Source of the DNA: Rhodoferax ferrireducens T118
Lineage (GTDB): Bacteria; Pseudomonadota; Gammaproteobacteria; Burkholderiales; Burkholderiaceae_C
NCBI RefSeq assembly: GCF_000013605.1
Contig: NC_007908.1
Location: 2,108,001 to 2,172,000, forward strand
DNA length: 64,000 bases
Direction: 5' to 3'
The notes under the pieces are model-generated. The model was not told the origin of the DNA. It saw only the letters and a list, made by a program, of their open reading frames with translations, and made no database searches. The translations under genes and the position numbers were made by a program. Shown here one piece after another: positions 10,048 through 62,233 of the stretch. Numbering within the stretch: the first letter of the stretch is position 1; each line of letters opens with the position of its first letter.

Positions 10048-10097
10048 TGCTATAAAAAGTATAGCTTAATACGCCCTGTCTACAAGGGCTACAGCCA
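10048..10097 (-). repeat. 50-bp dispersed element, intergenic copy
   Basis: On the minus strand the copy starts TGGCTGTAGCCC and ends AAGCTATACTTTTTATAGC. Its centre has a self-complementary GCCCT/AGGGC pair. It lies between the HxlR-like gene and the FKBP gene, in the same orientation as both. Confidence 0.8.
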
Positions 10098-10127
10098 TTA
10101 ATAAAAAGTCTCAGCAGACCGGGGTGT

Positions 10128-10439
10128 TCAAATGTCTTTCTTGGCAAGGGTTGCCACCCATTTGGTGGCAAATGCCGGAAGGTCGGCCAAGCGTTTGAGC
10201 AGATCCGCCCCCAAAGTCGTGACGACGTAGCCCTCATTGCCATGATCGACCAGTCCGGCTGCGCGCAAATTCTTGATGCGGGTGTTCAGCGTGTTGGGAG
10301 TAATGGTGCCTACGCTGTCCTGCAGCAATCGAAAAGTCTGCGCGTGACCATCCCTCAAGGCCCACAGAACCCGAATGGCATAACGCGACTCGAGAAGTTC
10401 AAGCAGTTGACCGATTGCAGCATTTTCTTTGGAACTCAT
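10128..10439 (-). CDS. HxlR-like winged-helix transcriptional regulator
   Basis: 103 aa, one winged helix-turn-helix domain. LLELLESRYAIRVLWALRDG, then TFRLLQDSVGTITPNTLNTR (recognition-helix region) and a wing with LVDHGNEGYVVTTLGADLL, fit the HxlR/MarR-like pattern. It lacks the early Cys used for redox sensing in some HxlR proteins. The start at ATG 10439 is supported by AAGGAGAG 8 nt upstream. It is divergent from the ComFB-like gene, a possible target. The regulon is unknown. Confidence 0.75.
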   Translation of the reverse strand: MSSKENAAIGQLLELLESRYAIRVLWALRDGHAQTFRLLQDSVGTITPNTLNTRIKNLRAAGLVDHGNEGYVVTTLGADLLKRLADLPAFATKWVATLAKKDI

Positions 10440-10560
10440 GAGACAACTCTCCTTTTGGTATTGATTGATCGACGAGCGTCTTGAACTGGCAAAAGTCGTC
10501 AGACATTTGATATCTGTAGTTTTCCGGCGCTGGCCGAAACTATAGCGCAGATTGAAGACA

Positions 10561-10604
10561 TGCTACATGTTTCATAGCTATCATCAGTCGCACTGCCACA
10601 GCCA
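10561..10604 (-). repeat. Shortened variant of the 50-bp dispersed element
   Basis: On the minus strand GGCTGTGGC at one end and TAGCTATGAAACATGTAGCA at the other match the element ends, but the centre is about 6 nt shorter. It sits in the 276-bp gap between the HxlR-like and ComFB-like genes, where I see nothing else firm. Confidence 0.4.
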
Positions 10605-10715
10605 CGGAAGTTTTTCTCATTCTTTTTCAGGATGATTGTTCTTGTCAGGGGCCAGTGGAGCTGCTAAGGTGATTTTCTTGAAGGCTTGATGTCTGGCGAT
10701 ATTTTGGAGGATTTC

Positions 10716-11003
10716 ATGGTTATCAATTTTGAACAGGTTCACAATTATTACGAACGACTGGTGTTTGAGGCGGTGGCGCGGCAGTCTGCGGCGCACCCGG
10801 GTTTCACGTCCGATATGCTGGCTGATGTGGCCTGTGTCGCATTGAACCGCCTGCCTGCGCGTTATGTCCGGCACGATGTGGACATGATGTTCTACCTGAC
10901 TGAACATGAACGCCATGCCATCGAACAATCCATGGCCGAAGGGCTGATTTTTGCCTTTGCTTTTGTCGCTGATCGGGTGGCCAAGCGCCAGGCGCTGGTT
11001 TAA
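10716..11003 (+). CDS. ComFB-family protein (possible cyclic-dinucleotide receptor)
   Basis: 95 aa from ATG 10716, preferred over the ATG at 10686 because TTGGAGG lies 5-7 nt upstream. The pattern VHNYYERLVFEAV near the start and DVACVALNRLPARYVRHDVD in the middle is that of ComFB (late competence) proteins. The Cys-rich zinc motif of the Bacillus protein is absent. Recent work has proposed ComFB proteins as cyclic-di-nucleotide receptors, which would fit the large c-di-GMP gene block 6 kb away; that link is inference. It stands alone, divergent from the HxlR-like gene. I see nothing firm in the 284 bp downstream. Confidence 0.75.
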   Translation: MVINFEQVHNYYERLVFEAVARQSAAHPGFTSDMLADVACVALNRLPARYVRHDVDMMFYLTEHERHAIEQSMAEGLIFAFAFVADRVAKRQALV

Positions 11004-11287
11004 CAAGCCTGTTGGCTGATGTGGTTGGCGAGTTCAAGGACGCCAGCAAGGCATTTCAAGATTGCCGGGTATTGAGGGTGTGTTGGCGCGTGTTGTCTTG
11101 ATAGACGGTTAAAATATACCGCTTGGACTGTAATTTGATCGCTTTGAGTCCCGTTGTGCCGGCAATTATTTTTTAGTTGCACTTGGCCTCAGGGTAAACC
11201 TCGGGACGTTAGTGCTGGTGTAATCCCTAAAATGTGCTGCAGTGCAATACAGCTATTTCAGCTTCGAACTGTGCTTAAGGGAATCCC

Positions 11288-11821
11288 ATGCAATCCAAGA
11301 AAGTCGCTGAGCCAAAAGTCACCCAGCGGATCATAAAAAAATACCCTAACCGACGCCTTTACGACACCGACACGTCGAGTTACATCACGCTGGCCCAGGT
11401 CAAGCGCCTGGTGATGGACAGTGAGCCCTTTGTCGTGATGGATGTCAAAACCGGCGAAGACCTGACGCGCAGCATTCTGCTTCAAATCATTCTGGAAGAA
11501 GAGTCCAATGACTCTCCCATGTTCACCGCGCCAGTGCTGGCCAGTGTGATCCGTTTCTATGGCCATGCCATGCAGGGTTTCATGGGTGGCTACCTGGAAA
11601 AAAACATGCAGCAATTGATGGACGTTCAGGCCAAATTTGCAGAACAAAGCAAAGGTCTGTCACCGGAAATGTGGACCCAGTTCATGGCATTGCAGTCCCC
11701 CGTGCTGCAGAGCATGCTGGGCGGCAAACTGGAACAGTCCAAAAACCTGTTCGAGCAAATGCAGGAACAGATGCAAAAACAGACCGGTCAGATGCTCGGG
11801 GCGTTTGGCATCAAACGCTGA
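11288..11821 (+). CDS. phaR: Polyhydroxyalkanoate synthesis repressor PhaR
   Basis: 177 aa. The N-terminal DNA-binding domain is diagnostic: [20 protein letters not shown] followed by TLAQVKRLV and [21 protein letters not shown]-accumulation regulatory domain and a Gln/Met-rich C-terminal helix follow. PhaR binds PHA granules and represses phasin genes until polymer forms. The start ATG 11288 has AAGGGA 6 nt upstream. phaP/phaC genes are not in the window. rimO follows after 34 bp. Confidence 0.93.
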
Positions 11822-11855
11822 TCGTGGCGCGAATGCTGGAACAATTTATTTATTT

Positions 11856-16548: not shown

Positions 16549-16598
16549 GGGCTGTAGCCCTCATGTGGATTGCTTAATTAGCTACTATTTTTATAGTG
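16549..16598 (+). repeat. 50-bp dispersed element overlapping a stop codon
   Basis: The plus strand begins GGGCTGTAGCCC and ends TAGCTACTATTTTTATAGTG. It lies between convergent genes. Its last 8 bp encode, on the other strand, the final Leu codon CTA and TAA stop of the histidine kinase (stop at 16591). Confidence 0.85.
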
Positions 16599-18252
16599 TC
16601 TTGGTTTTCTTGGGCAGGATCACCCTGAACACCGTCCCCTGTCCCAATTCGCTCTTGACCTCAATGCGCCCATCGTGTTTTTTGACAATACCGTAAGCCA
16701 GTGAAAGGCCCAGCCCGGTGCCTTGGCCGACTGGTTTGGTCGTGAAGAACGGTTCAAAAATCCGGGACAGATGCTCCGGCTGGATGCCGCGGCCGCTGTC
16801 TTGCACTTCCACCCACACACAGGCGTCGTCGTGCCCGGTGCGGATGGCAATGGTGCCACGCCCTTCAATGGCGTGCGAGGCGTTGATCAAGAGGTTCATG
16901 AACACCTGGTTAAGCTGAAAAGCAAAGCATTCGACTTGCGGAATACCTGCAAACTCCTTGATCACCTCGGCCTTGTACTTGAGCTCGTTCCAGACCACGC
17001 GCAAGGTGCTCTCCAGCCCGGCCTCCAGGTCGGCCCACTGGCGCTCTGATTCATCCACATGAGAAAAATCTTTCAAGTCCTGCACGATGCGCGTGACGCG
17101 CTTGAGCCCGTCCAGCGATTCGACGAGCAAGTTGGCGACGTCTTCGCGCAGGAACTCGACATCAATGTCCGCCTTGACCTGGTTTATCTCTTGCGTCGCC
17201 GCCCCAGGGAGGGCGCCTTCAGCCTTCTCGTAGACCGACAGCAACCTGAGCATGTCGGTGACATAGCGCTGCAAGGAGCCCAGATTGGAGTTGACAAACC
17301 CCACCGGATTGTTGATTTCATGCGCGACGCCGGCCGCCAGTTGGCCGATGGACGCCATGCGCTCCGATTGCAGCAGCTGGTTTTGCGCCTCTTCCAGTCG
17401 CTTGATCAAAATGGCCTGGCGCTCCTTTTCCTGCTGCAGCGTCTCATTGGCGGTATTCAAGTCGGCTGTTCGGGATCGCACCCTTTGTTCCAGCAAGTCG
17501 CGCGATTCACGCAATGCGGCTTCGGCCAGCGTGCGCTGGGTGATGTCCTGAAAACCAAACACGCGGCCGATAATCTGCTCACCCAGGTACTGCGGACGCG
17601 AGCTGACCTCGAACACGCGACCGTCCTGGTGGTGCAGCAGGTCTTCGGTCTCGCGCTTGTCCACGATCGCACCCAGTCGCGCGTGAAGCAGCCCGGACTC
17701 GATGACACGCCCGGCCACAAAACCCAGAATGCGCGCATCGTCATGCGAGTCGAGCAGATCGTCAGAAATCTCCCACATCTTGCCAAACAGGCGGTTCATA
17801 CTCTCGATCCGGCCTTGCCAGCCAATGACCAGGATGCCATTGCCAGTGGACTCCAGCGTGGCTCGCAACTGCGACAAGGTTTGTGCCAGCGCGTCCTCCG
17901 CCTTGCGCTCATTGCGGGTCTGCACGGCCTGCACCAGCAGCAGAGGCGCCCCGTCTTGGTCAAGCAGCCGAATTGACTTGCTGACCGTCAAAAGTTCTCC
18001 CTGCGCGCAGCGATACTGCCCCTCCTGACTCTGTACTTCAAGACACTGGCCAGTTCGAACGTCCTCCCAATAAAAAACATCCTGTAGCGCACTTTCAATC
18101 TCGGTGATCGCCAAGCCCTGCAACTGCGCCAGCGAGTAGCCCAGTGTCTTGACCACCGACGCGTTGGCCATCATGATCTGCAGTGTTGCCGGGTTGACCA
18201 ACAGCACCATCTCGGGGCTGTTGTCGAGCATCAGTCTGGCCAGCGCATTCAT
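16591..18252 (-). CDS. PAS-domain sensor histidine kinase
   Basis: 553 aa, no membrane segment. Two PAS domains (about 5-115 and 125-245) and a coiled coil lead to the H-box ([12 protein letters not shown], His near 311) and an HATPase domain with the N-box region INASHAI, G1 [16 protein letters not shown] and G2 GTGLGLSLA. No receiver is fused to it. Its ATG overlaps the stop of the HD-GYP gene (ATGA), so it ends a signalling operon. Likely partners are the REC domains at 19664-21013 and 22144-26211 (inference). The stop codon is supplied by a 50-bp repeat. Confidence 0.9.
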
Positions 18253-26544: not shown

Positions 26545-26594
26545 AGCCTCTAGTCCACGTTCAGTCTGCATTTAATGCTATCTATTTAGTAGCT
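26545..26594 (+). repeat. 50-bp dispersed element overlapping a stop codon
   Basis: A more diverged copy: AGCCTCTAGTCC at the left, ATGCTATCTATTTAGTAGC at the right. The TAG stop (26593-26595, minus strand) of the GGDEF-EAL gene overlaps its right edge. Confidence 0.7.
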
Positions 26595-29500
26595 ATTGAA
26601 GGGTTGCCATGAGCGACGGGTGGTCCGTGCCGCCCGCGGCAACCCAGGCTGCATCGCGCTGCCAGCTTGCCGCCCAGGCCGGAAAGAGGTCGGCGGGCAT
26701 GGGCCGCGCAATGCCGAAGCCTTGCCCCAGATCGCAGCCCAGTTGCAGCAGCAAGGTGCCGTGGGCAATGGTCTCCACACCTTCGGCAATGACGTTGCGC
26801 CGAAACGCACCGGCCAGGCCGATAACACCCTGCAAAATGGCCATGTCGTCGGGGTCGTCGAGCATGTCGCGCACAAAGCTCTGGTCAATCTTGAGCAGAT
26901 CGACTTGCAGACGTTTGAGGTAGGTCAGCGACGAATAGCCGGTACCAAAATCGTCCAGGGCAAACAGCACCCCCATTTCCCGGCATTCTTCAATCGATTG
27001 CGACACGCCAACCCAGTCTTCGAGGGCACTGGTCTCCAGCACCTCGATTTCCAGCTGAAACGGCTTGACCCCGGGTTGTGCGGCCAGCAGCTCGCGCAGG
27101 CGTGGCACGAAGTCGGCCTGCTGGAGCTGGCGTGCGCCGACGTTGACGCTAATCGGCATGTCCAGCCCGTCGGCCTGCCAAAGCTCGTTCTGGATCAGCG
27201 CGGTGGCGATCACCCACTCGCCAATATCGACGGCCAGCGGATGATCCTCGATCACGGGCAAAAACAGGGCCGGGGCAAGCAGCCCTTTTTCGGGATGTTG
27301 CCAGCGAATCAGCGCTTCAGCACCAATCACGGCGCCGGTGCGCATGTTGACCTTGGGCTGGTAATAGAGCACGAATTCACGTCGGTCAAGCGCCTGGCGG
27401 ATGCGCTCCAGGCTCTCATGATGTCCGCGCGCGCTGCGGTCTTGTGCCGCGTCAAAAAAGTGGTAGCGGTTTTTGCCCGCCAGCTTGGCCTGGTACATGG
27501 CCTGATCGGCCTGGCGCAGCAACTGGTCAGCTTCCATCTCATCGACCTGCGGATAAAAGGTCACACCCAGGCTGGCCGAAACTTGCAGCGCCAGATCGCC
27601 CAGGCGCACCGGTTCGGCCGCCGCCGCCAACAAGCGGCTGAGCATGGGCGCGCTGGCCTTGCTGTCGCTCAGATCGAGCAGCACCGCCACGAACTCGTCG
27701 CCACCAATGCGCGCCAGCGTGTCGCCCTCGCGCAGGGTCTGCTTCATGCGGGTGGCGACTGTCATGAGCAGCAGATCGCCGGCTTCATGGCCATGGCGGT
27801 CGTTGATGGCCTTGAAGCCGTCGAGGTCGAGGTAGGCCAGCGCCAGCATCTGGCCACGGCGCTGCGCCTGCGCCATGGCTTGCTGCAAGCGGTCGGCCAG
27901 CAGCACCCGGTTGGGCAAGTTGGTGAGGGCGTCAAAGTGGGCAATGTGTTCGAGCTCGTGTTGGTGCGCCTTGATGGCGCTGATGTCGGAAAACAGCGCG
28001 ACATAGTTCTGGACCTGGCCCTGGTCCGTGCGCACGGCGCTGATGGTGAGCATCTCGGGGTACAACTCGCCGTTTTTGCGCCGGTTCCAGATTTCACCGT
28101 ACCAATGGCCTTGTTCGCCCAGGTCGTGCCACATGGCGGCGTAAAACGCCTTGTCCTGGCGGCCCGAGCCCAGCACTCGCGGGTTCTGGCCCAGCACTTC
28201 GTCCCGGCTGTAGCCGGTGATGCGGCAAAAAGCCTCATTGACATCAATGATGGTGGCGCGTGCGTCGGTGATGGCGATGCCCTCGCGGGCATGGCTGAAG
28301 ACGTTGGCCGCAAGTTGCAGCTTGTCGTGCGCCAGTTTGCGCTCGGAGATGTCGCGAAAAGCAGTCCGGATGGCCGCTAGCCCCTCGTAAATAATCGAAG
28401 TGCTCTGGACTTCCACGTCAATCGGCGTGCCATCGAGCCTGAGATATTTTTCATCGATCAGAGGCGCCGCATGGCCGGTGTTGGTGATGTGCCTGACGCG
28501 CGCCGTGGCGACTTGATGGGAATCCGGATGAATCAAATCAAGGAGGGCCTTGCCGACCAGTTCTTGCGCTGTGCGGGCACCAAACATCGCGATGGCGGCT
28601 GGATTGAGATAAATGATGCGCAGCTCACGATGGACCAGGATCGCGGCGGGTGATTCCTCGATCAGGGTGCGAAAACGTTCTTCGCTGTCGCGCATTTTTT
28701 TGGCCGCGGCTTGTCCTTCAATCACGATGGCGGCGATCCGGGCAAAGCGCTCAACCGAGGCAATTTCAGCCGACGTCGGCGTGTGGGTGGTGTGGTGGTA
28801 GCTGGCAAAGGTTCCCAGCACCTGGCCCAGGGAGGAAAGAATGGGCTGCGACCAGCAGGCGCCCAAGTCGGCGCGTGCCGCGAGTTCCTTGTAGCGCTGC
28901 CAATACACATGGGTTGCAATGTCGCTGACGATGACGCGCTCCGCGGTAAAGGCGGACGTGCCGCAGGAGCCGGCACCGGCGCCGATTTCAATGCCGTCGA
29001 TGGCCGCGTTATAAAAGTCGGGCAGACTCGGCGCCACACCTTGGCCCAGATGCTGGCCGTCGCCGCTGAGCAGCAAGATGCTGCACAGCATGGTGGGGTT
29101 GAGTTGCTCCACGCCGCGCACCAGGGCTTCAAGAATGAGGGGCAGTGGCTCACCGCTTGCCAGAAGCTCCAGAATGCGGCTGCGAAGTTGCTCGAATTTC
29201 CCGACCTGGATCCGTTCGGTGATGTCCGTAATGACACCGACAAAGCAATGTTGATGGGTGCTGGCGTCGTGGAAGCCGCGGCACGCCAGGTGGCCCCAGA
29301 ATTCGGATTCGTCGGCGCGCCAATACAGGCGCTCCAAATCGGAGGACGAGACTTTGTTGGCCAGCAAAGCCAGCATGTTCTGTTGTCCGACATTGCGCTC
29401 CGCCGGGTGCACCAGGCTGACGTAGTCATGCCCGATCAGGGTGTCGAGCGGGCAACCGAACATCTCGGCCATGCGCTGGTTGGCTTGCGTGATGCGGCCC

Positions 29501-30654
29501 TGTGAGTCGATGACAAAGATGGCGGCGCTGGAGGTGTCAAGAATCTGCTTGAGCAGGGTCTCACGCTGGTGCAGGTGAGCCAGCAGGTGATTGAAGCCAT
29601 CAATCAAGTGGCCAATTTCGTCCGGGTGAGCGACGGGCAGCGCGATCGGAAATGTCTGGGCTGTGGGCAGGGCCACCAAGGTTTCGGCGGTGGCGAGCAG
29701 CGGCGCCAGTTGCCGGCGCAGCATCCACCATGTCAGGCCGCCCGCCAGCAGGGTCAGCAGCACGGTGGCCAGCACAATACGCCGCTGCATGGCGTCGATG
29801 GGTGCAAAGGCTTCGGCGGTGGGCAATGCCGCCGCCACGTACCAATCGGCCAGCGTGATGCCCTTGGCCGAGGTCAGTGTTTCCACCTCAAAGGGGTCAA
29901 CGAAAATTGCGGAACCCTCATAACCCTGCATGAAGCGGTCAATCAGGCGGTTGACGCCGGGCGCAGGCGCTGCCTCCATGACCCGTTTTTTGTCGGTGTT
30001 GGTGATCACCATCCGGGCTGGTCGCGCAACCAGCAGATAGCTGCCAGTCTTGCCATAACGGCCCTGGCTGATCGGGTCCAGCAGATTAGGCAATGTTAGA
30101 TTGATCATGCCAGCCAGAGCCCCGATCACCTGGCCCTGTGGATTGCGAATGGGCGCCGCCATGGTGATCAGTGGCGCTGGCAGCGCCTTGTCCATCACCG
30201 GCTGACCGACCGTTGTGCGCCCCTGCCGCAGCGCGGCGGCAATCGCCCCGATCGCCAGGGTAGTAACGCCGATCCGTTCCTTGGCGAACGGCACCGCGTG
30301 GCTGACCGTGCCGTCCAGCGTGGTGACGATGACGCCGGCATTGAATAGACCGCGAAAAACCGGCTGTGCCTCCAGGAATTCTTGCAGTGCGGCGTCATGA
30401 CGCAGCAGGGCCGGATCCATGCGTTCGGCCACCTGATCCAGTGCTACCAAACGTTCTTCCAATTTGTGACTGATCCCTGCCGCCACCCCAGTCACGCTCG
30501 CCAGTTGCTGGTCCCCCAATTGCTGCTGCATGTCCGCGCGCAACATGCGACTGGCAAACAGCGCCAGCGCCCAGATACTGAGCACAAAAATTGTCAGCGA
30601 AAAGAGGGTCACGCGGGCCTTGAGCGAGTGTGACTGAAAGATATTCAAATCCAT
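26593..30654 (-). CDS. Membrane dCACHE-HAMP-PAS-GAF-PAS-PAS-GGDEF-EAL protein
   Basis: 1353 aa bifunctional-type c-di-GMP enzyme. A membrane helix (about 17-35), a periplasmic dCACHE-like sensor (40-285, with AAPIRNPQGQVIGALAGMIN), a second helix (290-312), HAMP (313-365), PAS, GAF (500-665), two PAS, GGDEF with intact GGDEF (near 983) and I-site REGD, and EAL (1105-1345) with AEALIRW, DDFGTGYSS, LKIDQSF and AEGVET. Both catalytic signatures are complete, so net activity depends on the sensed ligand. It is separated from the next gene by 381 bp holding a repeat and a pseudogene, so it may be its own unit. Confidence 0.92.
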   Translation of the reverse strand: MDLNIFQSHSLKARVTLFSLTIFVLSIWALALFASRMLRADMQQQLGDQQLASVTGVAAGISHKLEERLVALDQVAERMDPALLRHDAALQEFLEAQPVFRGLFNAGVIVTTLDGTVSHAVPFAKERIGVTTLAIGAIAAALRQGRTTVGQPVMDKALPAPLITMAAPIRNPQGQVIGALAGMINLTLPNLLDPISQGRYGKTGSYLLVARPARMVITNTDKKRVMEAAPAPGVNRLIDRFMQGYEGSAIFVDPFEVETLTSAKGITLADWYVAAALPTAEAFAPIDAMQRRIVLATVLLTLLAGGLTWWMLRRQLAPLLATAETLVALPTAQTFPIALPVAHPDEIGHLIDGFNHLLAHLHQRETLLKQILDTSSAAIFVIDSQGRITQANQRMAEMFGCPLDTLIGHDYVSLVHPAERNVGQQNMLALLANKVSSSDLERLYWRADESEFWGHLACRGFHDASTHQHCFVGVITDITERIQVGKFEQLRSRILELLASGEPLPLILEALVRGVEQLNPTMLCSILLLSGDGQHLGQGVAPSLPDFYNAAIDGIEIGAGAGSCGTSAFTAERVIVSDIATHVYWQRYKELAARADLGACWSQPILSSLGQVLGTFASYHHTTHTPTSAEIASVERFARIAAIVIEGQAAAKKMRDSEERFRTLIEESPAAILVHRELRIIYLNPAAIAMFGARTAQELVGKALLDLIHPDSHQVATARVRHITNTGHAAPLIDEKYLRLDGTPIDVEVQSTSIIYEGLAAIRTAFRDISERKLAHDKLQLAANVFSHAREGIAITDARATIIDVNEAFCRITGYSRDEVLGQNPRVLGSGRQDKAFYAAMWHDLGEQGHWYGEIWNRRKNGELYPEMLTISAVRTDQGQVQNYVALFSDISAIKAHQHELEHIAHFDALTNLPNRVLLADRLQQAMAQAQRRGQMLALAYLDLDGFKAINDRHGHEAGDLLLMTVATRMKQTLREGDTLARIGGDEFVAVLLDLSDSKASAPMLSRLLAAAAEPVRLGDLALQVSASLGVTFYPQVDEMEADQLLRQADQAMYQAKLAGKNRYHFFDAAQDRSARGHHESLERIRQALDRREFVLYYQPKVNMRTGAVIGAEALIRWQHPEKGLLAPALFLPVIEDHPLAVDIGEWVIATALIQNELWQADGLDMPISVNVGARQLQQADFVPRLRELLAAQPGVKPFQLEIEVLETSALEDWVGVSQSIEECREMGVLFALDDFGTGYSSLTYLKRLQVDLLKIDQSFVRDMLDDPDDMAILQGVIGLAGAFRRNVIAEGVETIAHGTLLLQLGCDLGQGFGIARPMPADLFPAWAASWQRDAAWVAAGGTDHPSLMATLQ

Positions 30655-30789: not shown

Positions 30790-30839
30790 GGCCTCCAGCC
30801 CTTGTATTTATTGCATTAGTAGCTATTAATGTAATAGTA
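30790..30839 (+). repeat. 50-bp dispersed element supplying the nnrDE stop codon
   Basis: GGCCTCCAGCCC at the left and TAGCTATTAATGTAATAGTA at the right. On the minus strand it encodes the last codons CTA TTA CAT TAA of nnrDE. Confidence 0.85.
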
Positions 30840-32289
30840 GACGAGACAAGGCTCCAGCCGTCAAGGCGCGCCCGGGGGGCCACCGATCGGCCGCCAGACC
30901 GTGCTGGTAGACCGCCTGGCAAGCGGCCTCAAAAGCGTCCAGGCCGCCCGCCAGGCGCGCGCCAATCAGCCCCGCCAATACATCGCCCGTACCTGCGGTG
31001 GCCAGGCGGGCGTTGCCGGTGGGATTGATGACGGAGGTCTGGCCGGGGGCAGCCATCAGCGTGCCCGAACCTTTGAGCACCACGGTGCAGTGATAGCGCT
31101 CGGCCAGTTGCCCGCAAGCGGCTAGGCGATCCGCCTGGACCTGTGCGGCGCTGGTGCCCAGCAGGCGCGCGGCTTCCAGTGGGTGCGGTGTCAGCACGGT
31201 GGCGGCACCACGCTGGCTGCGCTCGGTCAGCAAGGTTTGAAGCTTGGTGTCATTTGCTATTACATTTATAGCATCTGCATCAATAACGACGGCGGCTGCA
31301 GCCGATAAAATCCTGGGCAGCTGCGCACAAATGGCGTCCCCGCCACCACAGCCGCAAACAACCGTCATGGCGGACAGCTCAAGTGCCTCGACCGGTCGGA
31401 ACATCAGCTCGGGTTGGCTGGTATCCACGCTCAGCGTGCCACCGTCGAGCAAGCCGACAAAAACCCGCCCGGCGCCCGCGTGCAGCGCGGCCGACGCTGC
31501 CAGCAGGGCGGCACCGGTCATGCCGGGTGCGCCGCCCACCACGGCGATATCGCCGTAGCTGCCTTTGTGCGAGGCATGCGGGCGCTCGGCCGCCGGCGGC
31601 GCGCCTGCCAGCCAGGCCGTTGGTGCAAGCGGTTGTTGCGCCAGGGCGGTGAGTTGATCCACGCCGAGGTCAGCCAGCCAGACGCTGCCAGCGGCGTCGC
31701 GCCCATGCGCGGTGAACAAGCCGGGTTTGAGTGTGAGCAGGCTCAAGGTGTGCGTGGCCTTGACGCTCAGTTGCGTCACGGCGCCGGTGTCGGCGTGCAG
31801 GCCGGTGGGCAAGTCCACCGCCAGCACCGCCTGCTTGCTGGCGTTGATCAACCTGATCCAGTCGGCCATGCGACCGTCGGGCTCGCGTACCTGGCTGCCG
31901 ATGCCCAGCAAGGCATCAATGCACAAATCAAACGCGTCGGGCGGCGTCTGCGAGAAGGTGACGCCGGCCTGCAGCGCACGCTGGTAAGAAGCCGCGGCAT
32001 CTGCTGGCGCCGTGTCTGCGCTGCCGAGCCAGGTGAGCACCGGCTGCTTGCCCCAGCGCTGCAAGTGCATGGCGGCCTCCAGCCCGTCGCCGCCGTTGTT
32101 GCCGGGCCCGCAGGCGATCCAGATGCGCCGGGCGTGCGGCGCCAGGGCGAGCGCCAGTTGCGCCACGGCCAGCCCGGCGCGCGCCATCAGGGTGTGAGCG
32201 GGCAGGGCGGCCTGTGCCGCCTGCTCCATGGCGCGTGTGGCCGCCACGTTGAACAAGGCGTGGCGGGTTCGGAAGTCTATTTTTTGCAT
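30826..32289 (-). CDS. nnrDE: Bifunctional NAD(P)H-hydrate epimerase / ADP-dependent NAD(P)H-hydrate dehydratase
   Basis: 487 aa metabolite-repair enzyme. The N-terminal YjeF_N domain (about 10-210, with CGPGNNGGDGLEAAMHL and AVDLPTGLHADTG) epimerises damaged NAD(P)HX. The C-terminal ribokinase-like domain (220-485, KGSYGDIAVVGGAPGMTGA, VVIDADAINVIA, VLTPHPLEAARLLG, NPTGNARLATAGTGDVLAG) dehydrates it using ADP. VVIDADAINVIA lies inside a 50-bp repeat copy whose codons (ATA, GTA, ATA) are unusual here, and the last residues come from another copy. The MBL gene is 5 bp upstream, so the two are probably cotranscribed. Confidence 0.95.
   Translation of the reverse strand: MQKIDFRTRHALFNVAATRAMEQAAQAALPAHTLMARAGLAVAQLALALAPHARRIWIACGPGNNGGDGLEAAMHLQRWGKQPVLTWLGSADTAPADAAASYQRALQAGVTFSQTPPDAFDLCIDALLGIGSQVREPDGRMADWIRLINASKQAVLAVDLPTGLHADTGAVTQLSVKATHTLSLLTLKPGLFTAHGRDAAGSVWLADLGVDQLTALAQQPLAPTAWLAGAPPAAERPHASHKGSYGDIAVVGGAPGMTGAALLAASAALHAGAGRVFVGLLDGGTLSVDTSQPELMFRPVEALELSAMTVVCGCGGGDAICAQLPRILSAAAAVVIDADAINVIANDTKLQTLLTERSQRGAATVLTPHPLEAARLLGTSAAQVQADRLAACGQLAERYHCTVVLKGSGTLMAAPGQTSVINPTGNARLATAGTGDVLAGLIGARLAGGLDAFEAACQAVYQHGLAADRWPPGRALTAGALSRLLLH
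31255..31304 (-). repeat. 50-bp dispersed element inside nnrDE
   Basis: In the coding strand it starts CGGCTGCAGC and ends ATGCTATAAATGTAATAGCA, with GCT and ATAG at the same offsets (33 and 45) as in intergenic copies. It is in frame and encodes the conserved VIDADAINVIA motif with AT-rich codons. Confidence 0.6.
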
Positions 32290-35400: not shown

Positions 35401-35450
35401 GGCCTCTAGCCACCGTGTATTATGCACAATGTGCTATTATTTTTGTAGTA
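35401..35450 (+). repeat. 50-bp dispersed element supplying the amidase stop codon
   Basis: GGCCTCTAGC at the left, GTGCTATTATTTTTGTAGTA at the right. The TAA stop of the amidase (35437-35439, minus strand) and its last codons CGA ATA CTA CAA AAA overlap the element. Confidence 0.85.
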
Positions 35451-36765
35451 TTCGCTCGATCTGCAGCGCGATATTGAGCACGGTGTCGTCGCGCAACGCA
35501 CCGGCCCAGACCATCAAACCCACGGGTAACTCATCGGCGGTCTGGCACGGCAGCGACAGCGCGCAGCCATCGAGCATGTTGACCACGCTGGGGTTGCGCA
35601 GCAGCAGGGCGTTGACGCGCAAGAAAGCAGCGTCGCGCGCGAGGCCTGGTGCCAGCTCCGCCATGGGTGGTGCCACGATCGGGACGGTGGGCGACAACAC
35701 CGCGTCAAAGCCCTGCAGGGCCGATGCCATCTGGCTGATCCAGCGTTGCCGCTCGCGCAGCAGCGTGATGTAGTCATAGGCACTCATGCTGGCGCCGCGC
35801 TGGATGCGGCTTGCCACGCGTGGGTCGTAAGCAGCGGCGTTGCGCTCAAGTAACTGGCGATGCCAAACGTAACTCTCGGCCGCCGCCAAGCTGCCAGCGG
35901 CCTGAATCGACTGCAGCTGGCCGATCTCGGTCAGGTTGACTTCTTCAACCTGGGCTCCGGCCCGGCGCAGGGTGGCCAGGGTGCGCTGCCAGGCGCGTGA
36001 AACGGTGTCGTCCAGCTCGTCCTGCATCAGGGTGCGGGCAACGGCCAGGCGGTAGGCGGCCAGTGGCGCGGAGCTGCGCGTCACCTGGCGCTGGGCCAGC
36101 AGCTCGTGCGCCAGCATCGCGTCACGCACGCTGCGGGTCATGGCGCAGACCGTGTCAAGTGTGGTGGACAGTGGCAGAGCACCTTGGGTCGGCACCAGGC
36201 GGGCGGTGCTTTTAAAGCCAACAATGCCGTTCAGAGCGGCCGGGATGCGGATGGAGCCGCCGGTGTCGCTTCCCAGACCGATGAAGGCGGCGCCGGTAGC
36301 GACTGATACGCCAGCGCCCGACGAGGAGCCACCGGGAATGCGTGGCACATCGGTGCTGCACGGGTTGACCGGTGTACCAAAGTGTGGATTGGTGCCGACG
36401 CCCGAGAATGCAAATTCCACCATATGGGTGCGCCCCATGAAGGCGGCGCCAGCGCGGCGCAAACGCGCAACGGCCGGGCTGTCTTGCTCGGCGGGCGGGT
36501 TGTCCTTGAGGACCACCGAGCCGGCGCAGGTGGTTTGTCCGGCCACATCAAACAGGTCCTTGATGGAAACGGCCAGGCCCGCCAGCGGCTTGGTCTGGAT
36601 GCCCGGGGTGTTGGCGATGGCGCGGGCCTCGTCAAATGTGGTCTGCACGAAGGCATGCTGGCAGGCAGGTGATTGCGCGGCCTGAATGGCCCGCTCAATT
36701 TCGCTTGTTGCCTGGGTTTGGCCAGTGCGCAAGCGCTGCCGGGTGGTGTGGAGGTCTGAAAGCAT
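35437..36765 (-). CDS. Amidase-signature family enzyme
   Basis: 442 aa from ATG 36765 (MLSDLHTTRQ); the longer frame to 36900 is less likely because typical amidases start close to here. The Ser-cisSer-Lys triad is visible: VSIKDLFDV (Lys), GGSSSGAGVSVATG (cis-Ser) and GSDTGGSIRIPA (nucleophile Ser). It hydrolyses an unidentified amide. It is not GatA in context, as no gatB/gatC is near. No clear Shine-Dalgarno is visible. Its last codons come from a 50-bp repeat. Confidence 0.88.
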   Translation of the reverse strand: MLSDLHTTRQRLRTGQTQATSEIERAIQAAQSPACQHAFVQTTFDEARAIANTPGIQTKPLAGLAVSIKDLFDVAGQTTCAGSVVLKDNPPAEQDSPAVARLRRAGAAFMGRTHMVEFAFSGVGTNPHFGTPVNPCSTDVPRIPGGSSSGAGVSVATGAAFIGLGSDTGGSIRIPAALNGIVGFKSTARLVPTQGALPLSTTLDTVCAMTRSVRDAMLAHELLAQRQVTRSSAPLAAYRLAVARTLMQDELDDTVSRAWQRTLATLRRAGAQVEEVNLTEIGQLQSIQAAGSLAAAESYVWHRQLLERNAAAYDPRVASRIQRGASMSAYDYITLLRERQRWISQMASALQGFDAVLSPTVPIVAPPMAELAPGLARDAAFLRVNALLLRNPSVVNMLDGCALSLPCQTADELPVGLMVWAGALRDDTVLNIALQIERILQK

Positions 36766-36776
36766 GGAATCGCAGG

Positions 36777-36782
36777 CTATAA
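36777..36782 (+). promoter_or_regulatory. Candidate -10 (TATAAT) of a long rpsB leader
   Basis: A perfect TATAAT would start transcription near 36789, giving a leader of about 150 nt before the rpsB ATG, similar to the length of the autoregulated E. coli rpsB leader. The -35 is poor (TCTGAA at 17-nt spacing), so this rests mainly on the -10. Confidence 0.4.
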
Positions 36783-36939
36783 TTGTCAGGCTTTGCTGGG
36801 TGGCCCAAGTGGCTATTTGGTGAGCAAAACAGCAAACCAGTTTCATCAAGGTGTTGCAACTTTTTACCGGCGCATCAGTAGCGCCATCGAAAAGTGGCAA
36901 AAACGAACTGGATTTTAGACCTAACCTTTGGAATTAATT

Positions 36940-48125: not shown

Positions 48126-48920
48126 TTGACAACCATTCATGCCACGGCGATTGTCGATTCCCAGGCCCAGCTGGACAGCTCGGTGACCGTTGGCCCCTAC
48201 AGCCTGATTGGCCCCAACGTCAAGGTGGGGGCGGGGACCACCATTGGTCCGCATTGCGTGATTGAAGGACACACCACGATCGGACGCGACAACCGCATTT
48301 TCCAATTCAGCTCTTTGGGTGCTATTCCGCAAGACAAGAAGTACGCCGGAGAACCCTGTGAACTGGTCATTGGCGACCGCAACACCATTCGCGAGTTCTG
48401 CACCTTCAACATTGGCTCGCCAGGGGATCTGGGTGTAACCCGCGTCGGCGATGACAACTGGCTGATGGCCTATGTGCACCTTGCGCACGATTGCGTCGTC
48501 GGCAACAAGACCATATTTGCCAACAATTCCCAGTTGGCGGGCCACGTCCATGTGGGAGACTGGGCGATTCTGGGCGGCTTCACCGTGGTGCATCAGTTTG
48601 TGAAGATTGGCGCCCACAGCATGACGGCCCTGTGCACGGTGTTGTTGGCCGATTTGCCGCCGTTCGTCATGTGTCAGGGCCAGCCGGCGCAGGCCCGCTC
48701 CATGAACTATGAAGGACTGCGCCGTCGTGGTTTTTCGCCAGAGCGTATTGCTGTCGTCAAAGCCATGCACAAAGCCCTGTATCGCGAGAGTCTGACGCTA
48801 CAGCTGGCGCGTGAGCGCATTGCGGATTTGGTGAAAAATAGCCCTGAGTCCCTGCCAGATGTGGAGATGATGCTCTTATTTTTGGAGCAAACGTCGCCCC
48901 AGCGTGGCATTGTGCGCTGA
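48126..48920 (+). CDS. lpxA: UDP-N-acetylglucosamine O-acyltransferase
   Basis: 264 aa, first step of lipid A synthesis. Hexapeptide beta-helix ([20 protein letters not shown]...), [10 protein letters not shown] with the catalytic His, and [14 protein letters not shown] start 48126 with GAAGG 7 nt upstream. The last ~27 codons overlap a 50-bp element copy. Confidence 0.95.
48840..48889 (+). repeat. 50-bp dispersed element inside the 3' end of lpxA
   Basis: AGCCCTGAGTCC at the left and ATGCTCTTATTTTTGGAGCA at the right, with GCT and the T-run at the same offsets as other copies. It is in frame and encodes the segment ending MMLLFLEQ. Confidence 0.5.
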
Positions 48921-48943: not shown

Positions 48944-50113
48944 ATGGCAAATCAAATTAGCCAACATCTCCAGGTGGCGCTGGTGGCCGGCGAAACCTCG
49001 GGTGATCTGCTTGCGGGTTTGCTGCTGGATGGTCTGCGGGAGCAATGGCCACTTATGACCGCAGTCGGCATCGGCGGCCCTCAGATGGCGCGCCGTGGCC
49101 TGGTGGCCTGGTGGGGGCATGACAAACTCTCGGTGCATGGCTTTGGTTGGGAGGTGCTGCGCCGCTACCGCGAGATTGTAGGTATTCGCCGCCAACTCAA
49201 AACCCGGCTGCTGCGGCAGCAGCCCGATGTCTTCATTGGTGTGGATGCGCCCGACTTCAACCTGGATCTGGAGCAAGACCTGAAAGCCCAGGGCATCAAG
49301 ACCGTGCATTTTGTGTCACCGTCCATCTGGGCCTGGCGCCCTGAGCGGGTAGAGAAGATTCGCCGCAGTGTCGACCATGTGTTGTGTATTTTCCCGTTCG
49401 AGCCCGCTCTGCTGGCCCGGCACGGCATCGCCGCGACCTACGTTGGGCACCCATTGGCCAACGTGATTCCGATGGAGCCCGATCGATCGGCTGCGCGTGC
49501 CGCCTTGGGACTGGCCGATGGGGACCAAGTTGTCGCGATCTTGCCCGGCAGTCGTCAATCTGAAATCAATCATCTGGCTTTAAGGTTCTTTCAGGCTGCA
49601 GCCCTTATCAACAAAGCGCATCCAGCTATTAAATTTATAGTTCCTGCCATTCCAGCGTTGAGGGCAGGCATTGAGCACGCCGCCCGTGCCAGCGGCATGC
49701 AGGCGCATCTGCAAATCATTGCGGGCCAGTCGCACACGGTGCTGGCGGCTTGTGATGTCACCTTGATCGCCAGTGGCACTGCCACGCTGGAAGCGGCCCT
49801 GTTCAAGCGTCCGATGGTGATCGCCTACCGCATGGGTTGGCTCTCCTGGCAGATCATGCGGCGCAAACAGTTGCAGCCCTGGGTCGGTTTGCCCAATATT
49901 TTGTGCCAGGATTTTGTCGTGCCCGAATTGCTGCAAGACGCTGCCACAGCACAAGCGCTGGCTGACGCGGTGTTGCTCTGGATCGATGCCAAGGCATCGC
50001 ATCCTGCGAAAATAGCGGCTCTGCAACAAAAATTCACCGCCCTGCACACAGAGTTGCAGCGCGACACTCCTCGATTGGCCGCCCATGCGATCCAGCAAGT
50101 CCTCCAAGGCTGA
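48944..50113 (+). CDS. lpxB: Lipid-A-disaccharide synthase
   Basis: 389 aa GT19 glycosyltransferase joining two acylated glucosamines. [52 protein letters not shown] and [13 protein letters not shown] are family motifs. A 50-bp repeat copy lies in the middle, in frame, and encodes the conserved segment [17 protein letters not shown]. Confidence 0.95.
49593..49642 (+). repeat. 50-bp dispersed element inside lpxB
   Basis: AGGCTGCAGCCC at the left, CAGCTATTAAATTTATAGTT at the right, with an inner GCcCTT/AAGcGC pairing. The protein shows no insertion here relative to the family pattern, but the codons turn AT-rich (ATT AAA TTT ATA GTT). Confidence 0.75.
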
Positions 50114-50744: not shown

Positions 50745-51535
50745 GTGCGCCAGAGGTTCAGCACATCACGTCGCGCGACAACGCTTTTCTCAAAGACCTG
50801 CGTCGCCTGGCGCAAGATAACACCGGCTATCGGAAACAGGGCCGGTTCTGGGCCGAGGGTGAGCACCTGGGTGCTGCCGCACTGGCCCGTCATGTGACGC
50901 CCGCCATCGGTGTTTTTTCAGAGTCATTTTGGCCTCTAGCCCCCGCGAAATATGCGCAGGCAGCTATAAAAAGTATAGTTATCCCGGATTCCTTGTTCGC
51001 GGCGATCAGTGGCCTTGAGTCACCCGCCCAGATGGGCTTTGTCTTTGATTTGCCGCTGGTGGCGGCTTTGCAGCCGGTCATGGCGTCGGTTATTCTGGAC
51101 CGGGTGCAAGACGCAGGCAATGTCGGATCGATTCTGCGCAGTGCCTCAGCCTTCGGCTTCAAACAAGTCATCGCCTTGAAAGGTACGGCTGCGCTGTGGA
51201 GCCCCAAAGTGCTGCGCGCCGGTATGGGCGCGCATTGGGGTTTGCAATTGATCGAAGGCGTGGCGCTGGCTGATCTGGCGCTACTGGCCGTGCCGATCGT
51301 GGTGACCAGCTCGCATCGGGGCTCCTATTTGCATCAGGCGATCGCCAATCAGGCGCTGCCGATGCCCTGCGCCTGGGCGCTGGGGCACGAAGGGCAGGGC
51401 GTCAGCGCCGAGTTGGAGGCGCTGGCCCGCTTGCATGTGCGTATTGCCCAGCCCGGCGGTGAAGAGTCTCTTAACGTCGCTGCCGCCGCTGCCATTTGCC
51501 TGCATGCCAGTGCGGCAACCTCCTTGGTGGGGTGA
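50741..51535 (+). CDS. TrmH/SpoU-family RNA 2'-O-methyltransferase
   Basis: 264 aa. SPOUT motifs are [21 protein letters not shown] (motif 1, Asn and Arg), [12 protein letters not shown] (motif 2) and [20 protein letters not shown] (motif 3). The N-terminal ~100 residues form the RNA-binding domain, inside which a 50-bp element encodes [19 protein letters not shown] in frame. It overlaps the rnhB stop by ATGA. The target nucleotide is unknown. Confidence 0.9.
50931..50980 (+). repeat. 50-bp dispersed element inside the SpoU-type methyltransferase gene
   Basis: GGCCTCTAGCCCC at the left and CAGCTATAAAAAGTATAGTT at the right, with centre CGC/GCG and GCC/GGC pairings. In frame. Confidence 0.85.
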
Positions 51536-57601: not shown

Positions 57602-58012
57602 ATGTCACGGTTGCCGTTGTGGGCGGCTGCTCTGTGGTGGGGCAGCCTGAGCACGATCGGATTCCTGGTTGTGCCCCTGCTGTTTGCGACTTTGCCGACC
57701 CCGGCGCTGGCGGGTAATATGGCGGCACGCCTGTTCGCCGCTCAGACCGGGGTGTCCTGTGTGTGTGCTTTGCTGCTGCTCATGAGTTCAAGGAAAAATC
57801 AGGCTCTAGCCCCCGCCCCAATTGAACAAACAGCTATTATTTTTATAGTGGGAGGGATGCTGCTGGCGCTGCTGGCCGAGTTTGCCGTGGCGCCCCGCAT
57901 TGTGGCGCGCGAGAATTTGCGCTTGTGGCACAGCGTGGGCAGCGCGATGTATTTGCTGCAATGGTTGTGCGCTGGGGCGACTTTCTGGAAGTTGACGTCG
58001 CAACGTACTTAG
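57602..58012 (+). CDS. DUF4149-family membrane protein
   Basis: 136 aa with four predicted membrane helices, starting MSRLPLWAAALWWGSLSTIG and containing GFLVVPLLFATLP, AARLFAAQT and the late WHSVGSAMYLLQW of DUF4149 (TMEM205-like). Function unknown. It follows greA by 4 bp. A 50-bp element encodes the loop QALAPAPIEQTAIIFIV in frame, at the edge of the third helix. Confidence 0.8.
   Translation: MSRLPLWAAALWWGSLSTIGFLVVPLLFATLPTPALAGNMAARLFAAQTGVSCVCALLLLMSSRKNQALAPAPIEQTAIIFIVGGMLLALLAEFAVAPRIVARENLRLWHSVGSAMYLLQWLCAGATFWKLTSQRT
57801..57850 (+). repeat. 50-bp dispersed element inside the DUF4149 gene
   Basis: The clearest copy: AGGCTCTAGCCCC at the left and CAGCTATTATTTTTATAGTG at the right. 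In frame, no stop. Confidence 0.9.
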
Positions 58013-59243: not shown

Positions 59244-59361
59244 ATCCCATGCTTTGTCTGAGGATGAACGGCAGAAAACCATGTCCGGCGCATCTTGAAA
59301 CGCCTAAAATGCAACCCAAGTTATCTCTGTCTTCTTATTTGCTCACCCTTTGGAGCCTCGC

Positions 59362-61281
59362 TTGAATAATCAGTGGTTTTCAAAAATTGCCGTCTGGCTC
59401 GTTATTGCTCTTGTGCTTTTCACGGTATTCAAGCAGTTTGATGCGCGTGGGCCTGCGAGCGCCGGGTATCTGGGCTACTCTGACTTTCTGGAGGAAGTTC
59501 GAAATAATCGCATCAAGAGCGCTGTCATCCAGGAGGGGCAGGGCGGTACTGAAATTGTGGCTGTGACGACCGATGACCGCAGGGTCAGGACCACCGCGAC
59601 ATACCTGGACCGTGGTCTGGTGGGTGACTTGATCGCCAATGATGTCAAGTTTGATGTCAAACCGCGCGAAGAAGGTTCTTTGCTCATGACGCTGCTGGTC
59701 AGTTGGGGGCCGATGCTCTTGTTGATCGGTGTCTGGGTTTACTTTATGCGCCAGATGCAGGGCGGCGGCAAGGGTGGGGCCTTCAGTTTTGGTAAATCCA
59801 AGGCACGTCTGCTTGACGAAAACACCAACTTGGTGACCTTCGCTGATGTTGCGGGTTGTGACGAGGCCAAGGAAGAAGTCAAGGAAGTGGTTGACTTTCT
59901 GAAAGATCCGGCCAAATTCCAGAAGCTGGGTGGGCGCATTCCGCGCGGCCTGTTGCTGGTGGGCCCACCGGGCACTGGCAAGACGCTGCTGGCCAAAGGC
60001 ATTGCCGGTGAAGCCAAGGTTCCGTTCTTTTCGATTTCGGGTTCTGATTTTGTTGAAATGTTCGTCGGCGTCGGTGCTTCCCGGGTGCGCGACATGTTTG
60101 AGAACGCCAAGAAAAATGCACCTTGCATTATCTTTATCGACGAAATTGATGCTGTGGGTCGGCAACGTGGCGCCGGCTTGGGCGGTGGCAATGACGAGCG
60201 TGAACAAACACTGAACCAGATGCTGGTGGAGATGGATGGTTTTGAGACCAATGTTGGCGTGATCGTGGTGGCTGCCACCAATCGCCCTGACATTCTTGAC
60301 TCCGCGTTGCTGCGGCCGGGCCGCTTCGACCGGCAGGTGTATGTCACTCTGCCCGATATTCGGGGCCGTGAGCAAATTCTCAATGTACACATGCGCAAAG
60401 TGCCCTTGGGTCAGGATGTCAATGCCGGGGTGATCGCACGCGGTACACCGGGCATGTCGGGTGCCGATCTCGCTAATTTGTGCAATGAGGCGGCCTTGAT
60501 GGCGGCACGTCGCAATGCCCGCACGGTTGAGATGGCGGACTTTGAAAAAGCCAAGGACAAAATTCTGATGGGCCCGGAGCGCAAGAGCATGGTCATGCCC
60601 GAAAGCGAGCGCAAGAACACGGCTTATCACGAGTCGGGTCACGCGTTGATCGGCAAGTTGTTGTCCAAGTGCGATCCGGTGCACAAAGTGACCATCATTC
60701 CGCGTGGTCGTGCCTTGGGCGTCACCATGAGTTTGCCAGCGCAAGACCGCTACAGCTACGACAGCGAATACATGCTGCACCAGATCAGCATGCTGTTTGG
60801 TGGTCGTATTGCTGAAGAAGTGTTCATGAACCAGATGACCACCGGTGCCAGCAACGATTTTGAGCGTGCTACCCATATTGCGCGCGACATGGTGACGCGT
60901 TATGGCATGACCGATGCCCTGGGTCCGATGGTCTATGCCGAGAATGAGGGCGAGGTGTTTTTGGGTCGCTCGGTCACCAAGACCACCACCATGAGCGAAG
61001 AGACCATGCAGAAGGTTGACGCCGAGGTGCGCCGCATCATTGACCAGCAATACAGCCTGGCGCGCAAGCTCATTGAAGACAATCGCGACAAGATGCACGC
61101 CATGGCCAAGGCCTTGCTGGAGTGGGAAACCATTGACAGTGAACAGCTCGACGACATCATGGCCGGTAAAGAGCCCCGTCCGCCGAAAGACTGGACGCCA
61201 CGTATCCCGCCCGCTGGCAGTGACAGCAGCAGTGGTGGCACGCCCGCCGTCAAAACGGATGTGGCGCCAACGGCTGCCTGA
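59362..61281 (+). CDS. ftsH: ATP-dependent zinc metalloprotease FtsH
   Basis: 639 aa from TTG 59362 ([14 protein letters not shown]), GGAG 6 nt upstream; the in-frame TTG at 59350 overlaps that site. Two membrane helices (about 7-25 and 104-124) flank a periplasmic domain. The AAA module has GPPGTGKT (near 202), IIFIDEID and RPGRFDRQV. The protease has HESGH (near 423). It degrades RpoH and LpxC-type substrates, linking it to the heat-shock operon and lipid A genes in this window. Confidence 0.97.
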
Positions 61282-61300
61282 AAACGGTATTTATCAAAAA

Positions 61301-61325
61301 AACGGGGCGACAAGCCCCGTTTCTG
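61301..61325 (+). terminator. Intrinsic terminator after ftsH
   Basis: Stem AACGGGGC/GCCCCGTT with a 5-nt loop, followed by TCTGTTTT, 20 nt after the ftsH stop. It is probably leaky, because folP follows within 30 bp. Confidence 0.75.
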
Positions 61326-61354
61326 TTTTCAAATTTCTGGAGCGCTCTTTCAGC

Positions 61355-62233
61355 ATGAAATGGAACACGGCCCGATTCCTGATTGACCTCAGCCGCCCCC
61401 AGGTGATGGGCATTGTCAATATCACACCCGATTCGTTCTCGGACGGTGGTCAGCACGCATCCACCGCAGCGGCTCTGCGGCACTGTGAGACGCTGCTCAA
61501 AGAGGGGGCTGACATTCTGGATATCGGGGGGGAGTCGACCCGTCCCGGCGCTTTGTCCTTGCCACTGGATGAGGAGTTGGCGCGGGTGCTGCCTGTGGTG
61601 CGTGAAGCGGTTCGCTTGGGTGTGCCGGTATCGGTCGATACCTACAAGCCAAGGGTCATGCAAGCCGTGCTGGACCTTGGCGCTGACATCATCAACGACA
61701 TTTGGGCTCTGCGTTGGACTGAGCCCTGTGCCAACCCCGCACCCGCTGCCTTGAACGCCATGCAAGTGGTGGCAAAACACCCCAGTTGTGGCGTCTGTCT
61801 GATGCACATGCACCGTGAACCCTTGACGATGCAGATGGCCCCCATGGAGGGGGACGTGGTGCCGCAGGTGCTATTATTTTTGGAGCATTTGGCCCAATCG
61901 TTGCATGGGCTAGGGGTAGAAAAGAATCGTATCGTTATTGACCCCGGCATTGGCTTTGGCAAGACCGTGGCACAGAATTTTGCGCTACTGGCACGGCAGG
62001 GTGAGCTGCTGGGTGCGGGTTATCCGCTGCTGGTCGGTTGGTCGCGAAAATCATCATTGGCAGCGATCACAGCCACCCCGCTGGCCGCCGCGGCGACACT
62101 GGATGTTCATGAGCGCCTGGTGCCCAGTGTGGCCGCTGCGTTGTTGGCCGTGGAGCGTGGCGCAGCCATTGTCCGTGTGCATGACGTGCGGGAAACCGTG
62201 CAGGCTCTCAAGGTGCTCGGCGCTATAAGATAG
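61355..62233 (+). CDS. folP: Dihydropteroate synthase
   Basis: 292 aa from ATG 61355. VMGIVNITPDSFSDGGQH, DILDIGGESTRPGA, PVSVDTYKP, IDPGIGFGKT and LLVGWSRKSSL are the DHPS motifs; it condenses p-aminobenzoate with hydroxymethyl-dihydropterin diphosphate for folate. A 50-bp element lies in the gene on the opposite strand, coding for the VLLFLEHLAQSL segment. The ftsH-folP-glmM order is conserved. Confidence 0.95.
   Translation: MKWNTARFLIDLSRPQVMGIVNITPDSFSDGGQHASTAAALRHCETLLKEGADILDIGGESTRPGALSLPLDEELARVLPVVREAVRLGVPVSVDTYKPRVMQAVLDLGADIINDIWALRWTEPCANPAPAALNAMQVVAKHPSCGVCLMHMHREPLTMQMAPMEGDVVPQVLLFLEHLAQSLHGLGVEKNRIVIDPGIGFGKTVAQNFALLARQGELLGAGYPLLVGWSRKSSLAAITATPLAAAATLDVHERLVPSVAAALLAVERGAAIVRVHDVRETVQALKVLGAIR
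61869..61918 (-). repeat. 50-bp dispersed element inside folP (reverse orientation)
   Basis: On the minus strand CCCCTAGCCCA at the left and ATGCTCCAAAAATAATAGCA at the right. GCT and ATAG sit at the standard offsets, and the centre has a perfect GCCCA/TGGGC pair. In frame within folP. Confidence 0.6.

Follow-up and report, generated by a model that had tools for sequence, protein, structure and literature searches.

The window analysed here is a stretch of 64,000 nucleotides of the Rhodoferax ferrireducens T118 chromosome (NC_007908.1, positions 2,108,001 to 2,172,000). It carries eleven copies of a dispersed DNA motif, which an earlier note had described as a 50-bp element with fixed ends and a variable centre. 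All eleven are real. Scored with an independent profile, built from 50 copies in 19 evenly spaced 20-kb stretches of the chromosome beyond the window, they reach 20.7-55.2 bits, as against 8.7 bits for the next score in the window, 7.9 bits for the maximum in the reversed window and 9.3 bits for the maximum in 30 order-3 Markov controls. The same scan revealed no twelfth copy in the window above these controls. The copy at 10048 had been assigned to the wrong strand and lies on the minus strand, giving eight plus and three minus copies overall. Of the two landmarks reported for nearly all copies, GCT at offset 33 is present in 11 of 11, and most also have ATAG at offset 45 (1-based). Six copies lie inside genes with clear Pfam matches (nnrDE-type, lpxA, lpxB, SpoU-family methyltransferase, DUF4149 and folP), on which the note was silent, and the copies in lpxA and folP score lowest. 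Rfam at gathering thresholds reports only one tRNA in the window.

Table 1. Copies of the motif (50-bp box) in the 64-kb window, with scores from the independent profile.
Positions	Strand	Score (bits)	Location
10048..10097	-	42.8	Intergenic, just upstream of FKBP-type isomerase gene 9679-10032(-)
16549..16598	+	48.2	Overlaps 3' end of histidine-kinase gene 16591-18252(-), antisense to the gene
26545..26594	+	40.2	Touches 3' end of PAS/GGDEF/EAL gene 26593-30654(-)
30790..30839	+	54.2	Overlaps 3' end of nnrDE-type gene 30826-32289(-)
31255..31304	-	34.7	Inside nnrDE-type gene, same strand, residues 329-345
35401..35450	+	55.2	Overlaps 3' end of amidase gene 35437-36900(-)
48840..48889	+	20.7	Inside lpxA, residues 239-255; both core half-sites changed
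49593..49642	+	40.3	Inside lpxB, residues 217-233
50931..50980	+	50.6	Inside SpoU/TrmH-type RNA methyltransferase gene, residues 64-80
57801..57850	+	47.9	Inside DUF4149 gene 57602-58012, residues 67-83
61869..61918	-	33.0	Inside folP, antisense to the gene

Conservation extends beyond the exact 50 bp first proposed. Alignment of 58 genome copies shows conservation from about -17 to +52 around the 50-bp box, a unit of about 70 bp with fixed spacing and flat flanks, holding 56.0 bits over -20 to +55 and 44.6 bits in the box. The consensus is roughly TTTAT..(AAAA or TTTT).GGCCTCTAGCCCCCGT......TGCGTAAG.AGCTATTAATTTAATAGCA. We scanned the chromosome of 4,712,337 bases and the plasmid of 257,447 bases, the sizes published for R. 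ferrireducens T118 (PMC2755013). The core GCTATN7ATAGY gave 302 exact matches against 5 for the reversed pattern (counts sum both strands, so that palindromic sites are counted twice), and the genome scan proposed in the earlier note thus finds an excess far above chance. A 69-position model gave at least 150 matches, as all 150 candidates scored, of 2289 found, had E <2e-7. In 444 kb of sampled sequence, 66 matches were reduced to 61 copies once four scoring under 23 bits and the weaker of an overlapping pair had been dropped; 50 of the copies lie in the 380 kb outside the window, and 58 entered the logo and coupling tests, the other three being too near a stretch end. The density is about one per 7 kb, which extrapolates to roughly 600-650 copies per chromosome. 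In lpxA the core reads GCTCT...GGAGC here and GCTCT...AGAGC in several relatives, instead of GCTAT...ATAGC; the half-sites have changed together with the dyad kept, which may reflect chance or a second allowed form.

A simple gene caller, by which 88.8% of the sequence is coding, placed 23 of the 61 copies in genes, 10 at gene ends and 28 between genes (24 in-gene and 27 intergenic once the DUF4149 gene, which it missed, is counted). With about 11% of the sequence noncoding, these figures amount to a noncoding excess. Such an excess would suit a mobile repeat like the repetitive extragenic palindromic (REP) elements or miniature inverted-repeat transposable elements, perhaps moved by a REP-associated tyrosine transposase (RAYT, matched by Y1_Tnp) and decayed in Rhodoferax, an origin that we disfavour as improbable on grounds given below. 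Overlaps with gene ends fall at the 3' end in nine of ten cases, and the 28 intergenic copies comprise 16 co-directional, 8 convergent, 2 divergent and 2 at stretch ends. This preference for 3' ends might point to a signal at the RNA level, such as a terminator or an mRNA-stabilising hairpin. We hold that explanation to be most improbable, as the in-gene copies occur on both strands (15 same-strand, 8 antisense). Their reading frames are restricted, with one phase used by 13 of the 15 same-strand and 7 of the 8 antisense copies. For the 18 in-gene copies outside the window, the gene could be named in 10 cases, among them metH-type, aconitase, ispDF-type and heptosyltransferase genes.

The 257-kb plasmid, scanned whole, has no match above 7.5 bits and no core, where 35 copies would be expected at chromosomal density; on this one plasmid the motif is absent from horizontally acquired DNA, as uptake sequences are. 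Restriction to the chromosome also fits the main rival, which we consider unlikely: that an abundant protein of the nucleoid or of chromosome organisation binds the motif, each site being kept by direct selection. The distribution along the chromosome tells against it, for there is no symmetric order from origin to terminus. With dnaA at position 7, the first 1.25 Mb is poor (5 copies in 120 kb sampled) and the other origin-side arm is not (17 in 100 kb); counted by stretches, the six from the first 1.2 Mb hold 5 copies and the other thirteen hold 45. Replication-strand bias is only mild, with 85 copies with and 57 against (n = 142; terminus taken near 2.5 Mb; two-sided P 0.023). Two of the 20-kb stretches, L112 (236-256 kb) and L116 (1.18-1.20 Mb), hold no copy at all; the genes inspected there, 7 of the 17 called in the first and 3 of the 15 called in the second, include several with roles in sugar utilisation or regulation.

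For the copies inside genes the label "element" misleads, since alignments of orthologues, almost free of gaps, show that they are not inserted pieces. Compared with solved structures, the motif segment is gap-free in LpxB (5w8s) and FolP (2y5j). Against 4eqy, LpxA shows a gap of two residues where the motif ends on the right, NnrDE has a one-residue difference inside the motif of the 31255 copy and a two-residue gap at its right edge (2ax3), and the methyltransferase has a four-residue gap to a distant relative (7qiu). Orthologues were drawn from 80 loci fetched via LpxB (the best 80 of 125 relatives, with titles mostly of Comamonadaceae or Burkholderiales), and the counts with and without the motif omit intermediate scores. 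In lpxB, 33 orthologues have the motif and 40 lack it, with gaps in the segment in none of the 80. The corresponding figures are 35 with (none gapped) and 39 without (5 gapped) for trmH, 11 with (none gapped) and 66 without (11 gapped) for lpxA, and 18 with (1 gapped) and 22 without (7 gapped) for DUF4149. Three of the gapped trmH rows counted as lacking the motif are misclassified, because the full motif sits 18 bp off register; in the Rhodoferax-type loci L002, L006 and L015 a six-residue insertion just before the motif shifts it by that distance. Two further records (L028 and L036), titled Akkermansia muciniphila and Gammaproteobacteria, carry an lpxB close to that of Rhodoferax, and their labels look wrong.

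That in-gene copies add no length argues against a mobile repeat. Presence without change of length would be explained by short replacement patches, in which a plentiful single-stranded copy would replace the resident sequence at microhomologies, length for length, much as in short-patch double illegitimate recombination. Conserved residues persist through the copy, as in the VIDADAINV segment of NnrDE, partial matches exist (7 of 80 lpxB orthologues score between 5 and 18 bits) and the centre shows little sign of common ancestry. We therefore regard replacement patches as very improbable.

The motif is seen as a constraint on the DNA within permissive protein segments. In motif-bearing genomes, synonymous identity in the motif window exceeds that in the rest of the gene for lpxB (0.695 vs 0.500), trmH (0.680 vs 0.500) and DUF4149 (0.687 vs 0.434), and in these three genes no non-overlapping 17-codon window reaches the value of the motif. 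At the same codons in genomes lacking the motif, it is 0.412, 0.418 and 0.449, respectively. Codon choice in lpxB shows the same pattern, as ATA makes up 34 of 72 isoleucine codons in the motif, 49 of 678 elsewhere and none of the 24 found at these codons in genomes without the motif. In the latter genomes the motif segments of the four proteins are among the least conserved 3-9% of windows. Within genes, the motif is thus tolerated in place at permissive segments, as is characteristic of uptake sequences, in all four genes, with lpxA weak in the synonymous comparison.

Selection for self-pairing in the centre, which the earlier note had suggested, finds no support in the R. ferrireducens genome. 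None of the pairing registers tested beats column-shuffled copies (best z 1.4, 63 copies), and the three pairings offered as examples fall in three different registers (i+j = 32, 34 and 38). A covariation test, as the note advised, returned its strongest couplings mostly between neighbouring bases, at -4/-3 (TT 29, AA 23 of 58) and at 21/22, 19/20 and 30/31, while weaker ones join positions inside the left tract. The copies show little tendency to fold as RNA on either strand (mean z -0.66 and -0.50). A hairpin with covariation is not supported for this genome by couplings, registers or foldability, which suggests recognition rather than structure. The weak folding and the lack of a fixed pairing register also weigh against an RNA-level signal; the higher foldability in Acidovorax and Xylophilus (mean z -1.0 to -1.9) would favour one. 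An inverted repeat does form the centre consensus of Xylophilus (CCGGCG-N5-CGCCGGC) and, in part, that of Acidovorax (GCGCT.G-N5-C..GCGC, several copies having GCGCTTG-N5-CAAGCG). Both lie in register 34, and a mobile repeat would share this feature. Covariation within genera is slight (z 1.2 in Xylophilus, 2.2 in Acidovorax and 2.0 in Paracidovorax wautersii).

Kinship among copies bears on the mobile repeat in both directions. Over the full 50-bp box, pairwise identity is more widely spread than in any of 500 column shuffles, which is in its favour, although we would tentatively read this spread as good and poor copies rather than families. Against it, the highest identity over 50 bp is 80%, with a shuffled mean maximum of 77%, and for the centre alone 18 of 500 shuffles spread as widely (top pair 88%, shuffled mean maximum 79%). 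For a chromosome-organising protein, the interchangeable tracts at -4/-3 would suggest recognition of DNA shape. The AT content peaks near a helical period of 10.75 bp, which would agree, but the peak is not significant (permutation P 0.12).

The earlier impression that similar sequences recur in Comamonadaceae is borne out by core counts across relatives. Among 40 relatives, counts range from 1 to 380 in 24 genomes of the same genus and are near control in 16 of other families. With both strands summed, motif-rich genomes include Acidovorax sp. Leaf160 (569 core matches), Polaromonas sp. RGN.2 (553), Xylophilus sp. Leaf220 (478), P. wautersii (330), strain OS-4 (254) and Comamonas odontotermitis (174); Rhodoferax lacus (8), Hydrogenophaga borbori (3) and three Limnohabitans (3, 0 and 2) are poor. 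In an even draw of 200 family genomes, with presence judged by the core pattern, forward matches number at least 10 in 62, at least 30 in 55 and at most 8 in 138, and the reversed-pattern control never exceeds 8 per strand. That most of these genomes are without the motif is a further point against a chromosome-organising protein. Within a single genus, genome G136 has 425 core matches and genome G230 has 2.

Across genera the ends are common and the centres differ. This emerged from a scan with the centre masked, over 200 kb from each of six relatives and the 444 kb here, in which the reversed control also gave some matches for C. odontotermitis (5, against 40) and P. wautersii (1, against 30). 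The centre is CCCCCGT-N6-TGCGTAAG in R. ferrireducens, CGC.CGT.GAAT.TGCGCAAG in OS-4, CGCT.G-N5-C..GCGC in Acidovorax, CCGGCG-N5-CGCCGGC in Xylophilus and CCAATAGATACGCACGTGAG in Polaromonas (14 matches). In leave-one-out assignment of 224 copies to genomes, the centre placed 145 correctly, the left end 97 and the right end 81, the largest class being 63; columns outside the motif placed 38 and 46, a control with 5 and 9 columns against 22-23 and so not like for like. The copies of P. wautersii were assigned to Acidovorax (12) more often than to P. wautersii (8), and the dialects are therefore not unique to every genome.

We tentatively favour, while stopping short of calling it probable, the reading of the motif as a chromosome-wide DNA recognition signal that would work like a DNA uptake sequence. 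In being present or absent in place, at permissive positions, on both strands and not on the plasmid, with genus dialects and a patchy distribution, it behaves as such sequences do. In the mechanism that we propose, some DNA-binding component, most probably one of the apparatus for natural transformation, would prefer DNA carrying the motif. Preferred uptake followed by homologous recombination would spread alleles closer to the consensus, and the motif would accumulate wherever proteins tolerate its sequence. A shift in the specificity of the reader would give rise to genus dialects, and its loss to decay of the motif.

Several observations count against an uptake-like signal. The motif far exceeds known uptake sequences in length and is less dense, at about one copy per 7 kb, and our searches of open-licence papers turned up no uptake experiment on it; for these reasons we speak of likeness to uptake sequences and not of membership. 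In lpxA, synonymous identity is 0.662 in the motif against 0.529 elsewhere, and 11 other windows reach it. The synonymous test is also partly circular, as genomes were sorted by motif score beforehand; the circularity is softened by the largely two-peaked scores of lpxB, with 33 genomes above 18 bits, 7 between and 40 below 5 bits. Nor does the presence of competence genes predict the motif. ComEC is present in 53 of 55 genomes, including motif-poor ones, so that its presence does not track the motif, and the two genomes without a match are motif-rich (G023 with 380 core matches, G040 with 211). A ComP_DUS-type pilin occurs in 51 of the 55, motif-rich and motif-poor alike, and the four without a match (G008, G013, G020 and G072) have 56-203 core matches. 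Among the genomes lacking a match, several are incomplete or have no completeness stated, but G013 is rated at 100%, and its motif therefore argues against ComP_DUS as the reader; another receptor may fill that role.

Y1_Tnp likewise occurs in 53 of the 55 genomes irrespective of motif count. Its presence in motif-poor genomes, and the lack of a match in the motif-rich Xylophilus G058 (478 core matches) and in Giesbergeria G072 (203; a small metagenome-assembled genome), speak against a mobile repeat. None of ComEC, ComP_DUS and Y1_Tnp tracks motif count in the 55 genomes. A chromosome-organising protein requires no competence, so the ComEC and ComP results do not weigh against it. It would, on the other hand, demand weak selection per base at hundreds of 56-bit sites, many of them in core genes.

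If an uptake-like signal is indeed what the motif provides, the selfish-drive and safe-sex models could be tested in one more family, whose signal is long, modular and divided into dialects. Barriers to gene exchange would be predicted among common freshwater, soil and plant bacteria, and a DNA-binding protein would be indicated as the reader. It is conceivable, if on balance doubtful, that Comamonadaceae represent a third independent lineage of self-DNA recognition, with a unit of about six helical turns, shared ends and a genus-specific "password" centre that would divide the whole family into gene-exchange groups coded in sequence. Even as a chromosome-organising site, a 70-bp signal that has shaped codon choice in lpxB, trmH and further core genes would be unusual.

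Comparison with known repeats separates the motif from several classes. Rickettsia palindromic elements are insertions that add residues. They resemble the motif as repeats in protein-coding genes, in frame, but the in-gene copies here add no residues in the alignments, and in-frame insertion of that type was rejected. REP elements with RAYTs share its shortness, its noncoding excess and, in some genera, its inverted repeats; the motif differs in that its copies in genes are not insertions, and the Y1 transposase associated with REP elements was not found to accompany it. The BRE of Bordetella and other Betaproteobacteria also occur in Comamonadaceae, some in coding sequence, with four copies in R. 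ferrireducens T118; they are about 90 bp at full length and, in Bordetella, 69% GC and tandem (PMC3110155). By this description they stand apart from the motif, which is about 70 bp long, has AT-rich tracts and is dispersed.

We know of no families of uptake sequences beyond Pasteurellaceae and Neisseriaceae, the two for which such sequences have been described. Our search of the open-licence literature found no paper that connects a motif of this kind with DNA uptake in Comamonadaceae, and a text search of PMC3733652 found none of six genus or order names. Pieces of the motif nevertheless appear, from the published patterns, to have been on record in 2017 in two genera. ATAGCT(N)22CAAAAG in Polaromonas naphthalenivorans CJ2 (125 copies) and GCTTAT(N)5AAGCG in Acidovorax ebreus TPSY (114 copies) were reported as separate, unexplained "potential novel motifs", 81% and 94% intergenic (PMC5217627). 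The passages of that paper on these motifs draw no link between genera and give neither a full length nor an analysis of in-gene copies. As patterns, both fit the register of our motif, the first as its reverse complement CTTTTG(N)22AGCTAT at offsets 3-8 and 31-36, the second at offsets 10-25.

The closest likeness is to the DNA uptake sequences (DUS) of Neisseriaceae and the uptake signal sequences (USS) of Pasteurellaceae. Their cores are roughly 9-12 bp. The Haemophilus influenzae consensus is AAGTGCGGT, with about 1300 copies. In place of such a short core, our motif has about 70 bp and 56 bits, at a lower density. In other respects it resembles them, with many copies on both strands, in core genes and intergenic space, at permissive segments (as placed for DUS and USS; PMC2397512), with absence from the plasmid tested, a patchy distribution by species and dialects by genus, such as are known for DUS in Neisseriaceae (PMC3630211).

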